A DNA stretch of 37,497 nt from Flavobacteriales bacterium. Its GTDB lineage: Bacteria; Bacteroidota; Bacteroidia; Flavobacteriales_E; Vicingaceae. The stretch covers positions 1-37,497 of the forward strand of contig PALM01000033.1 in NCBI GenBank assembly GCA_002706365.1. Reading direction: 5' to 3'. Under the pieces are notes generated by a model. The model was given only the letters and a program-made list of their open reading frames with translations. It did no database searches and was not told the origin of the DNA. Shown one piece after another: positions 298 to 37,381 of the stretch (position 1 is its first letter; each line of letters opens with the position of its first letter). The position numbers and the translations under genes are program-made.

Positions 298-1008
298 ATG
301 ACTTACAAACGTATCCTCCTAAAACTTAGTGGTGAAGCCCTAATGGGTGAGAAACAATTTGGAATCGATCACAGCAGATTGAATCAATATGCGAAAGAGA
401 TCAAAGAAATTGTCGACGAAGGTGTAGAGGTTGCGATTGTAATTGGTGGAGGAAACATCTTCCGCGGTATCCAAGCTGTAGATGGCGGAATTGAAAGAGT
501 GCAGGGCGACTATATGGGGATGCTCGCTACTGTGATCAATAGCATGGCACTACAATCGGCTCTTGAAGAGATCGATGTGTATACCCGTCTTCAAACTGCT
601 ATTAAAATGGAACAGATCGCTGAGCCTTATATCAGACGAAAAGCTGTTCGCCACCTCGAAAAAGGCCGAGTAGTGATCTTCGGTGCCGGAACAGGAAACC
701 CATACTTTACCACAGATACTGCAGCAAGCTTAAGAGCTATCGAGATCGAAGCGGATGTGATCCTCAAAGGAACTCGTGTGGATGGAATCTATAGCGCAGA
801 TCCAGAGAAAGATGCGGATGCAGTGAAATACGATAAGATCTCCTTCTCCGAAGTTTATGAGAAAGGGCTGAACGTGATGGACCTTACCGCCTTTACCCTC
901 TGCAATGAGAACAAGCTTCCTATTGTAGTCTTCGATATGAACAAAGCGGGCAATTTGAAAGAAGTTGTGCTCGGTTCCGAGCAAGTGGGTACCCTTGTTG
1001 AGTTTTAA
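298..1008 (+). CDS. pyrH: UMP kinase (uridylate kinase)
   Basis: This is the 236-residue bacterial UMP kinase of the amino-acid-kinase fold. It phosphorylates UMP to UDP with ATP in pyrimidine nucleotide synthesis, as a cytoplasmic hexamer. The N-terminal [12 protein letters not shown] motif, the glycine-rich GGGNIFRG loop and the segment [16 protein letters not shown] are all present. The ATG at 298 was chosen because it gives the family's usual start ([13 protein letters not shown]) and length. The frame extends upstream to a TTG at 238, but that extension overlaps the terminator T-run and has no family match. The leader carries a small hairpin (253-259 with 263-269) and a TTATTTTG stretch resembling the Bacteroidota -7 element. 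frr follows 48 bases downstream, probably in the same transcript. Confidence 0.97.
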
Positions 1009-1056
1009 GCGGGCATTTTCTAAGAATGCTTAATTTCATGCCGTTCAATTAATGCT

Positions 1057-1620
1057 ATGGAAGAGGAAATAGAAATCATTCTTGAGAGCGCTGACGAATC
1101 AATGAAAAGCGCCATTACCCACTTTGAAAAAGAGCTCACAAAAATTAGAGCGGGTAAAGCCAATCCAAATATGTTGGATTCTGTGTATGTGGAATACTAC
1201 GGTGCACAAACTCCACTAGGACAAGTTGCTAATGTAGGAACACTTGACGCCAGAACACTCACTATCGATCCCTGGGAAAAATCTACTCTTGAACCTATCG
1301 AAAGAGCCATCATCAACTCTAATCTGGGACTAAACCCTCAGAATAATGGAGAAATGATCATTATCAATATTCCTCAGCTTACTGAAGAGCGCAGAAAAGA
1401 CCTTGTTCGTCAGGCTAAAGCTGAAGCAGAAGATGCTAGAGTAAGTATCCGAAATGCGCGTAAAGATGCCAATGATGAAGTGAAAGGACTCGAAAAGGAA
1501 GGACTATCAGAAGATCAGGCGAAAGGTGTGGTAGAATCTATCCAAGACCTTACCGATAAGCACTCAGGAAGAGTGGATGCGATCCTTGCGGCGAAGGAAG
1601 AGGACATAATGAAGGTGTAG
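1057..1620 (+). CDS. frr: Ribosome recycling factor
   Basis: The 187-residue product matches ribosome recycling factor, which with EF-G splits post-termination ribosomes. Typical family segments are seen: the early helix containing KIRAGKANPNML, the DARTLTIDPWEKS stretch, then IIINIPQLTEERRKDLV, and the coiled helix with RNARKDANDEVKGLEKEG. The length equals the usual 185 or so. The ATG at 1057 leaves no extra N-terminal residues. The TAG stop at 1618-1620 is followed within two bases by degenerate and then perfect 7-bp CTAG repeat units, so the repeat array begins at the very end of this gene. Confidence 0.97.
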   Translation: MEEEIEIILESADESMKSAITHFEKELTKIRAGKANPNMLDSVYVEYYGAQTPLGQVANVGTLDARTLTIDPWEKSTLEPIERAIINSNLGLNPQNNGEMIIINIPQLTEERRKDLVRQAKAEAEDARVSIRNARKDANDEVKGLEKEGLSEDQAKGVVESIQDLTDKHSGRVDAILAAKEEDIMKV

Positions 1621-1621
1621 T

Positions 1622-1670
1622 TTAGAATCTGGAAACTAGAATCTAGAACCTAGAGCCTAGAATCTAGACT
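1622..1670 (+). repeat. CTAGAVY heptamer array, left copy (plus orientation)
   Basis: Five tandem 7-bp units fitting CTAG-A-[A/G/C]-[C/T] run from 1636 to 1670, preceded in register by two degenerate units (1622-1635). The last unit is CTAGACT, followed by G at 1671. The array starts just after the frr stop and supplies the stop codon (complement of 1664-1666) of the minus-strand four-helix-bundle gene. It points toward a matching minus-orientation array at 2090-2117. Confidence 0.9.
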
Positions 1671-2026
1671 GAACCTAGATTGCTTTTGAATCCTTTAATC
1701 ATTTTTTGAATCTTATCAATTTTCAACTTCAGATCACTGCAGTCTGACGCCTTTATATATTTCCTTCTTTCAGAGATAATCAATTGCGTTTCTAGCTCGT
1801 AAGATGATCCTAGAGAAATATCTAGAAAATGGGAGAATGATTTGTTTGATCTACTAGAACCTTCTGCAATATTTGTTGGTATTGAGGAAGAAGATCTACT
1901 CATTTGAGACTGCATTCCATATAGCTCAGAGTTTGGCATTTTTTCCAAAAGATCATAAACGTCATCTGCTATTTCAATTCCAACTTTCCAAATAGTTAGC
2001 TTCTTATAATTGTGTCGCTTTTCCAT
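1664..2026 (-). CDS. Four-helix-bundle protein (S23/IVP type)
   Basis: The 120-residue product belongs to the four-helix-bundle family first described as proteins encoded in 23S rRNA intervening sequences. These proteins occur widely in Bacteroidota as stand-alone genes of unproven function. Family marks are the start YKKLTIWK, the central ELYGMQSQMSRSSSSIPTNI, the NIAEG motif, and the GSSYELETQL segment before the last helix. There is no signal peptide or membrane segment. The gene has its own promoter-like sequence, and its V-stop end is formed by the last unit of the left CTAG array. It lies between convergent frr and the radical SAM gene and looks like an independent cassette rather than an operon member. 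Binding to structured RNA has been proposed for relatives, but nothing in this sequence proves a role. Confidence 0.88.
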   Translation of the reverse strand: MEKRHNYKKLTIWKVGIEIADDVYDLLEKMPNSELYGMQSQMSRSSSSIPTNIAEGSSRSNKSFSHFLDISLGSSYELETQLIISERRKYIKASDCSDLKLKIDKIQKMIKGFKSNLGSV

Positions 2027-2053
2027 AAGTTTTGATTTTAAACATCACTTATT

Positions 2054-2084
2054 AAAAGTTACAACATTCAATTTATAGCAGCAA
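2054..2084 (-). promoter_or_regulatory. Putative Bacteroidota promoter for the four-helix-bundle gene
   Basis: On the minus strand TTG (complement of 2082-2084) is followed after exactly 20 bases by TAACTTTT (complement of 2054-2061), one base off the TAnnTTTG -7 consensus. The start codon lies 27 bases further on. The whole promoter is inside the two inward-facing CTAG arrays, so the cassette carries its own promoter. Confidence 0.55.
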
Positions 2085-2089
2085 ATCGC

Positions 2090-2117
2090 AGTCTAGAGTC
2101 TAGGTTCTAGGTTCTAG
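2090..2117 (-). repeat. CTAGAVY heptamer array, right copy (minus orientation)
   Basis: Four tandem 7-bp units fit CTAGAVY when read on the minus strand, with a degenerate fifth at 2118-2124. Read in that direction the array again ends with CTAGACT followed by G (complement of 2089-2096), the same 8-bp end as the left array. The two arrays face each other across the four-helix-bundle gene. The outer edge is within about 10 bases of the radical SAM stop codon. Confidence 0.9.
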
Positions 2118-2123
2118 GCTCTT

Positions 2124-2145
2124 GTTTTCAGCTCCCGCTGAAAAC
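2124..2145. repeat. Inverted repeat across the radical SAM stop codon
   Basis: A perfect 9-bp inverted repeat, GTTTTCAGC (2124-2132) against GCTGAAAAC (2137-2145) with a 4-base loop, spans the last codons and TGA stop of the radical SAM gene. No T-run follows on the minus strand, so it is not a standard intrinsic terminator. It could still protect the mRNA 3' end or stall polymerase. It directly abuts the right CTAG array. Confidence 0.6.
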
Positions 2146-3156
2146 CCTCGTCCCTTCCGAACAATTCCTGCAGATCTCAATATTCTCCCTGCCTTTGAAT
2201 AGCTGTTTTCTGAATGCCCGATAGGCCTCTCCTTTCCAGATCGACTTAAAATCGGCTTCCGCCAATTCGCCCATGCTGTATTCCGCATCCTTATCGAAGC
2301 AGCAGGGAATCACTCTTCCATCCCAGGTGATCACACAGGAATGCCATAGCTTCCAGCAATGGTTATCAAGTGAGTTTTTGATGGAATAAGTACCATCCGA
2401 GTTCTTTTTATAGCGCGAATATTTATCTATGGAGGGCATTAGTGGATTGCCATGCTCATGCTCGTAAAGCTGAGCGGTCTTTAGTTTCACTTCATTCACG
2501 CCGTACTCTTTGGCAAGCTCATAGACTTCATCTATTTGATGCTCATTGGGCTTTACCACAAGGAATTGAAAGATCAAATGGGGAGTTTTCGACTTCAATT
2601 CCTTCTTCCATTTCACCACATTCTTGGTGCCTTCCAGAACCTTGCTTAGCTGTCCGCCTTTGCGATAATTCTCATAGGTCTCTTGTGTGGTGCCATCGAT
2701 GGATATGATCAAACGGTCCAAGCCACTTTCCACCGTCTTCTTGGCATTCTCATCATTCAAGAAATGTGCATTAGTAGATGTGGCTGTATAGATATTGGCC
2801 TGATTCGCATATTCCACCATATCAAGGAAATGCGGATTGATGTAGGGCTCACCCTGAAAATAAAAGGTGAGGTAAAAGCTTTCTTTAGACATCTGATCGA
2901 TCACCGATCTGTAGAAATCTGCTTTGAGGTTTCCTGTAGGCCTTGTGAAAGATCGCAAGCCACTTGGGCATTCCGGACAGCCCAAATTACACGCTGTGGT
3001 GGGTTCTATTGCGATGGCCAAAGGGGCGCCCCAATGCCAATTGATCATAAAAGTGCGAGAGATCGCAAAGCTGAACCAGATCTTAAATGCATTCAGCATC
3101 CTTGGCAAACTGCTTCGCTTGATCAATTGTAACTTATCCCAAAAGTGGAGCGTCAT
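2128..3156 (-). CDS. Radical SAM protein with SPASM-type C-terminal cysteines
   Basis: This 342-residue protein is a radical S-adenosylmethionine enzyme. The cluster motif is C56-x3-C60-x2-C63 (CNLGCPEC), followed by SAM-domain segments with YFQGEPYINP, the STNAHFL strand and the RLIISIDG strand. The C-terminal third has a SPASM-like set of cysteines (CWKLWHSC, then IPCCFD, then CRNCSEG) that would bind auxiliary Fe-S clusters. Such proteins modify peptides or act in cofactor and glycan pathways; the substrate here is unknown and no precursor peptide was seen nearby. The ATG at 3156 was chosen: a -7 element (TACTTTTA) lies four bases upstream, and the alternative TTG at 3177 would place that element inside the gene. 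The neighbouring DUF5686 gene is divergent, with no functional link evident. Confidence 0.88.
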   Translation of the reverse strand: MTLHFWDKLQLIKRSSLPRMLNAFKIWFSFAISRTFMINWHWGAPLAIAIEPTTACNLGCPECPSGLRSFTRPTGNLKADFYRSVIDQMSKESFYLTFYFQGEPYINPHFLDMVEYANQANIYTATSTNAHFLNDENAKKTVESGLDRLIISIDGTTQETYENYRKGGQLSKVLEGTKNVVKWKKELKSKTPHLIFQFLVVKPNEHQIDEVYELAKEYGVNEVKLKTAQLYEHEHGNPLMPSIDKYSRYKKNSDGTYSIKNSLDNHCWKLWHSCVITWDGRVIPCCFDKDAEYSMGELAEADFKSIWKGEAYRAFRKQLFKGRENIEICRNCSEGTRVFSGS

Positions 3157-3160
3157 ATTG

Positions 3161-3168
3161 TAAAAGTA
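3161..3168 (-). promoter_or_regulatory. Putative -7 element of the radical SAM gene
   Basis: TACTTTTA on the minus strand is one base off the Bacteroidota TAnnTTTG element and ends only four bases before the ATG at 3156. No TTG is found at the expected -33 distance. The short spacing would give a leaderless or nearly leaderless mRNA. Confidence 0.45.
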
Positions 3169-3200
3169 AGACGTCAATTACTCATAATGGAGATTTCTGA

Positions 3201-34706: not shown

Positions 34707-34734
34707 AGTCTAGGCTCTAGGTTCTAGGCTCTAG
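34707..34734 (-). repeat. CTAGAVY heptamer array, third copy (minus orientation)
   Basis: Four tandem 7-bp units all fit CTAGAVY when read on the minus strand. The last is CTAGACT, as in the two arrays around the four-helix-bundle gene; the following base here is A, not G. The array lies 72 bases after the barrel gene's stop and 40 bases before a 100-bp palindromic region beside tRNA-Leu. No partner array or four-helix-bundle gene is present. Confidence 0.88.
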
Positions 34735-34773
34735 ACTCTTAAAAAAGCTCTCGCCGGTTTTGGTCGAGGTCAT

Positions 34774-36787: not shown

Positions 36788-37345
36788 ATGAAGTACCTTA
36801 TCGCCGGACTAGGCAATATCGGAAGTGATTACGAGAACACCAGGCACAATATAGGTTTTGATACACTGGATGAGTTAGCTAATTCATCCAGTGTTTCTTT
36901 TTCTAGTGGTAGGTACGCAGATCAATGCGACCTTAAATTCAAAGGCAGAACACTTGTCCTTATAAAACCTACCACCTACATGAACTTAAGCGGCAAGGCC
37001 GTGCATTATTGGTTGCAAAAAGAGAAGATCCCCCTCGATCGACTCCTTGTGATCACCGATGATTTGGCCCTGCCCTTTGGAACATTAAGACTAAAAGCCA
37101 AAGGCTCCGACGGCGGACATAATGGCTTAAAACACATCCAACAAATTCTAGGCACTACAAATTACGCTCGTCTGCGTTTTGGTATCGGTAGCGACTATCC
37201 TAAAGGTCATCAGGTCGACTATGTACTATCTAAATGGTCTGAAGCTGAAGCTGAAGAATTACCTACCTTGATCAAAAGATCTACCGAGATCGTGAAGTCA
37301 TTTGTAAGCATTGGAGCAGCAAGGACGATGAATGAATTTAATTAA
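36788..37345 (+). CDS. pth: Peptidyl-tRNA hydrolase
   Basis: The 185-residue enzyme frees tRNA from prematurely dropped peptidyl-tRNA. Catalytic residues are in place: Asn10 (LGNIGSDYENT), His20 (RHNIGF), Asn66 (TYMNLSG) and Asp91 (VITDDLALPFG), followed by the GGHNGLKHI motif. Length is normal for the family. It is the last gene of the prs-rplY-pth unit seen here. A 7-bp CCGAT tandem array starts one base after the TAA stop. Confidence 0.97.
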   Translation: MKYLIAGLGNIGSDYENTRHNIGFDTLDELANSSSVSFSSGRYADQCDLKFKGRTLVLIKPTTYMNLSGKAVHYWLQKEKIPLDRLLVITDDLALPFGTLRLKAKGSDGGHNGLKHIQQILGTTNYARLRFGIGSDYPKGHQVDYVLSKWSEAEAEELPTLIKRSTEIVKSFVSIGAARTMNEFN

Positions 37346-37346
37346 T

Positions 37347-37381
37347 GGCCGATTGCCGATAACCGATAACCGATAGCCGGA
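37347..37381 (+). repeat. NNCCGAT heptamer array after pth
   Basis: Four perfect NNCCGAT units and a degenerate fifth run in tandem from one base after the pth stop. The first two units (37347-37360) are identical to a 14-base stretch on the minus strand inside the CESA-like glycosyltransferase gene (18638-18651). There is no strong hairpin or T-run, so it is not a normal terminator. Confidence 0.85.

Follow-up and report, generated by a model that had tools for sequence, protein, structure and literature searches.

The intervening sequence (IVS) in the 23S rRNA of Coxiella burnetii contains an S23 ORF, has complementary ends and carries GACAGAT heptamers upstream of the ORF (PMC4990558). In the same article, XCC0516 (2gsc) is given as a homopentamer. 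Repeats of 7 bp have been described from cyanobacteria, where the function of the STRRs was given as unknown (PMC2670836), and from Xanthomonas, where one strain contains 186 GGGAATC-type arrays, mostly of four units and many in convergent pairs (PMC4692102). S23 or four-helix terms are not mentioned in the latter article, and no paper linking heptamer arrays or IVSs to four-helix-bundle (fhb) genes was found in the library searched, which lacks most subscription journals. Here, an fhb gene enclosed by heptamer arrays in a Flavobacteriales genome, referred to as the host genome, is compared with these systems.

The cassette between frr and the radical SAM gene

The window, namely the whole stretch of 37,497 nucleotides that was analysed, includes an fhb/S23 gene (1664–2026, minus strand; 120 aa) enclosed by a pair of arrays, each with five 7-bp units and reading inward. 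The left array (1622–1671, plus strand) consists of five CTAGANY units (1636–1670), reading CTAGAAT CTAGAAC CTAGAGC CTAGAAT CTAGACTG over 1636–1671, preceded by two degenerate units, TTAGAAT CTGGAAA (1622–1635), that reach back to the frr stop. The right array (2124–2089, minus strand) is inverted relative to the left and reads CAAGAGC CTAGAAC CTAGAAC CTAGACT CTAGACTG, which is one variant and four CTAGANY units with five AGA cores. The inner ends of both arrays are alike, and the stop codon of the fhb gene is the TAG within the innermost unit of the left array. The flanks of the insertion site are the convergent frr (1057–1620, plus strand) and Radical SAM/SPASM (2128–3177, minus strand) genes, with the cassette between their stops at 1620 and 2128 rather than in 23S rRNA. 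The oppositely oriented arrays, their shared inner ends, the stop codon supplied by the left array and the position between the two convergent stops had been described in the initial annotation and were confirmed. An Rfam scan of positions 1000–3200 and a comparison with a defence library both gave no match.

Between the fhb start codon and the right array is a promoter-like sequence, TTTG-N20-TAACTTTT (2054–2085, minus strand), which we take to be of the Bacteroidota type, and the block around it is found again upstream of fhb genes in the same genus. The shared upstream motif TTGTAMC was rejected as common to all fhb loci, being present in only 10 of the 118 surveyed (see below), and is read as a genus promoter because nine of these 10 are in the genus of the host.

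The arrays are far more frequent than chance predicts: near matches to a two-unit pattern number 23 in the window, compared with 5.7 ± 2.7 in shuffles, and a three-CTAG pattern with at most one mismatch has 281 and 292 matches genome-wide, compared with 7 and 10 for the reversed control. A gene-less solo array of the CTAG family, AAGAGT CTAGAGC CTAGAAC CTAGAGC CTAGAC, is at 34708–34740 (minus strand). At the right end of the window (37345–37379), an array from a different family (GCCGATA) also has period 7. The initial annotation had considered the cluster striking on account of the rarity of CTAG. However, the tetranucleotide is only mildly depleted in the window (100 seen, 125 expected), and its general rarity therefore adds little.

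The encoded protein, the sole product of the cassette, passes the curated cut-offs of PF05635 (114.6 bits against 33.8) and TIGR02436 (107.1 against 24). The predicted monomer is a four-helix bundle (pLDDT 95), and its best match in the PDB is 2gsc, from Xanthomonas campestris (TM about 0.9), with 2rld at 0.8 and Avd at about 0.78; a PHROG search also returned Avd. As the solved relatives 2gsc and 2rld each contain five chains, the window protein should likewise assemble into a five-membered ring. In some cassettes the fhb gene is broken, which counts against the reading proposed below.

Inverted arrays around fhb genes

The host genome contains 12 PF05635 genes and, in the printed flanks, paired short arrays surround each of them. 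The array words differ among these loci and include CTAGANY, AAATCAG, GAGTCCG and GAGGAC. An explanation confined to a single locus and to CTAG was therefore dropped. The arrangement recurs widely. Among 118 fhb loci from the host genome, 60 relatives and GTDB genomes, 96 are flanked by inverted short-period (mostly 7-bp) arrays at z≥3 and 22 fail this test. The same test was passed by 13 of 300 control ORFs, all taken from the host genome, though some of the 13 are truly array-flanked and one is an fhb gene. Neighbouring genes in the same loci, a lineage-matched control, pass in 8 of 33 cases. Runs of at least four units at period 7 are found in 98 of the 236 flanks, compared with 4 when shuffled, and period 7 alone stands out among the periods tested (4–11). 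On the inward-reading strand, runs of AG were found at 98 of 107 loci and runs of CT at 2 of 107. The array word is lineage-dependent across the loci.

A MAG labelled Nitrotoga (G060) was rejected as a route to another phylum. As this draw looks like Bacteroidota (298/395 fhb-bearing genomes), it was treated as no more than a second Bacteroidota sample, in which 18 of 30 fhb genes are array-flanked. On plasmids from three other phyla, represented by Cyanobacteria, Gemmatirosa and Azospirillum, the inverted arms match at z≥5 in 12 of 16 fhb loci, and a few loci have period 8. On cyanobacterial plasmids, fhb genes were also seen inside CRISPR-cas operons, as cas6-fhb-cas4 twice and as cas10-fhb-cmr3 (L285, L287, L292).

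Exactly five AGA cores are present in 38 of 52 CTAG arrays in the host genome, with none having six and one having seven, and period-7 arrays of all host families peak at five units. Because a five-unit model was used to fit the array logo, the logo cannot prove the unit number; the run-length count is independent of it. As unit number varies outside the host genome, with up to 14 units in cyanobacterial arms, the match between a five-unit array and a five-subunit ring may be lineage-specific.

These properties make it very improbable that the arrays are ordinary slippage microsatellites alongside which fhb genes merely insert, because, despite units in tandem and very long arrays at some loci (L268), the five-unit peak is sharp, the inward polarity is fixed on both sides, the words of the two arms match, and both arms change together with the gene.

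Gain, loss and exchange, and solo arrays

The initial annotation had proposed a small mobile cassette, for which an empty site should exist downstream of frr in relatives. Such a site was found in G015, where frr and the radical SAM gene are a few bases apart, and they are also close in G048 and G040. In G001, from the same genus, this junction is occupied by an fhb cassette whose arms both have another word. G003 has an array-like inverted pair without a gene in the same gap (L169, 2061–2500). About 11 genomes have a cassette or a remnant of one between hmgA and hppD; in others this site is cleanly empty. Three further sites have flanks of about 0.76–0.94 identity, between which the gene (identity 0.64–0.67) and both arms differ; in one example of block exchange, the flanks are 0.90–0.94 identical, the gene is 0.64 identical and the arms are changed. 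On these sequence comparisons, array, gene and array are gained, lost and exchanged as one block. The compact block, the clean empty sites and the block differences thus bear out the cassette, from which we infer movement. No clear target-site duplication was seen by eye when the frr site was compared with the empty site in G015.

Dependence on a reverse transcriptase or a Y1 transposase was rejected, as no PF00078 match was found in the host genome (G000; 95.7 % complete) and no Y1 transposase in G001, G012, G026 and G045, each of which has 5–12 fhb genes. A RAYT (Y1) transposase-like gene with a palindrome-like repeat, ACCGCGCGACTGCGTCGCGTGG, close by was seen at L152 4515–4938.

Arrays without such genes elsewhere in the genome had been named as evidence against a cassette, and most arrays in the host genome do have no gene adjoining. 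However, they do not refute it, because the host's own arms of the abundant families match solo arrays while foreign arms do not. In the 427 kb of host sequence sampled, with the fhb loci masked, the CTAG arms (two loci) have 39–50 matches and the AAATCAG arms (two loci) 22–27, compared with a mean of 0.34 for arms from other genomes, array densities being biased upwards because the sampled contigs were partly chosen as known to hold CTAG arrays. The remaining eight of the 12 have 0–4 solo matches each. For the CTAG and AAATCAG families, singlets and inverted doublets that are cognate to a resident gene were found dispersed in the host genome. For other families in the host sample, such as ATTTCAC and AATTACG (L145–L164), no obvious fhb gene is among the 12. 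Protein similarity is correlated with arm similarity (Mantel r 0.70, 0/1000 permutations), for which shared descent may be the cause. Of the earlier proposal that the protein may recognise the repeat ends, the tie between protein and repeat stands, and the protein may bind the arrays.

The covariation of the protein with the word also speaks for a rival reading, in which the protein is a domesticated sequence-specific regulator or a nucleoid or RNA-binding factor, with the arrays as its operators or binding sites, those at its own gene autoregulatory and movement incidental. The arrays are also mostly intergenic (104/121 in the host genome), and host dnaJ is flanked by inverted CTAG arrays (L147, 6278 and 7504), one of them just upstream. 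We nevertheless regard a regulator as unlikely, because arrays between codirectional genes are 32 sense and 32 antisense and only 8 of 97 are between divergent genes, unlike operators, orthologous junctions within the genus have different arrays or none, and the cassette at a fixed site is missing from some genomes and exchanged in others.

An IVS-like RNA element is distinctly improbable. Here, the inverted arms would form a transcript stem cut by RNase III, so that operons or rRNA would tolerate the insertion, and the fhb protein would be secondary. Sense-oriented cassettes are indeed found inside operons (hmgA-hppD, cas6-cas4 and cas10-cmr3), RNase III cuts the Coxiella IVS, in which heptamers precede the S23 ORF, and arms match in register at 0.89, compared with 0.61 when shifted by 7, although choosing the best register biased the former value. 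However, a stem needs neither a 7-bp period nor an AG core, and solo arrays are unable to form one. Mismatches between arms show no excess of G.U (115 G.U, 144 A.C), and selection for an RNA stem, the other possibility raised in the initial annotation, was rejected for this reason.

Interpretation and comparison with known systems

Sequence comparison establishes the cassette structure, its gain, loss and exchange, the word shared within a genome for the abundant families and the covariation of protein with word. Together, these point to a mobile cassette whose fhb pentamer probably reads the cognate array. The small array-gene-array cassette occupies gaps between genes and encodes an S23/Avd-fold protein that would form a five-membered ring. 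Each subunit would contact one AG-cored heptamer, a one-to-one relationship that we infer, and one pentamer would therefore read one five-unit array. The inverted pair would mark the cassette ends. As there is no recognisable recombinase in the cassette, host functions must be used, our guess being replication or repair with the inverted arrays as substrate, and the fhb protein would supply recognition or protection.

More tentatively, S23/fhb pentamers and heptamer arrays could constitute one widespread mobile repeat system, built on a non-catalytic ring with one heptamer per subunit, of which 23S rRNA IVSs, cyanobacterial STRRs and Xanthomonas GGGAATC arrays would be members or by-products. 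The cognate link would connect two open questions, the function of heptamer arrays in cyanobacteria and Xanthomonas and that of S23/four-helix-bundle proteins, so that a single binding assay could test both, and the 23S rRNA IVSs would gain a parent family. The cassette may also account for scattered seven-letter repeats of long-unexplained purpose.

The Coxiella IVS looks like a special case of the cassette. Like the window cassette, 23S rRNA IVSs have an S23/PF05635-type ORF between complementary termini, and the Coxiella example shares tandem heptamers with an AGA core and a sporadic presence. However, IVSs are in the 23S rRNA gene, whereas the cassettes described here are in ordinary intergenic sites and operons and are accompanied by scattered arrays of the same word. 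The STRRs and the Xanthomonas arrays are likewise intergenic 7-bp arrays, often in inverted pairs or hairpins, and STRR-type heptamer arrays flank fhb genes on cyanobacterial plasmids. The REP/REPIN-RAYT system also consists of short intergenic repeats, found genome-wide as singlets and inverted doublets, that are akin to those on either side of a resident gene (PMC3116915). However, RAYT is a tyrosine transposase, whereas the fhb protein has a different fold without a known catalytic domain, and REP units are palindromes rather than heptamer arrays. Avd of the diversity-generating retroelements (4dwl, 8ub7) has the same fold and, like the solved fhb relatives, five-chain structures, although those elements differ in that the host genome yielded no reverse transcriptase. 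TRAP (trp RNA-binding attenuation protein) has an unrelated fold, is an 11-mer and recognises triplets with 2–3 nt spacers. The possible analogy is that of a ring protein in which each subunit reads one AG-containing repeat of a regularly spaced series, as would apply to the fhb pentamer.
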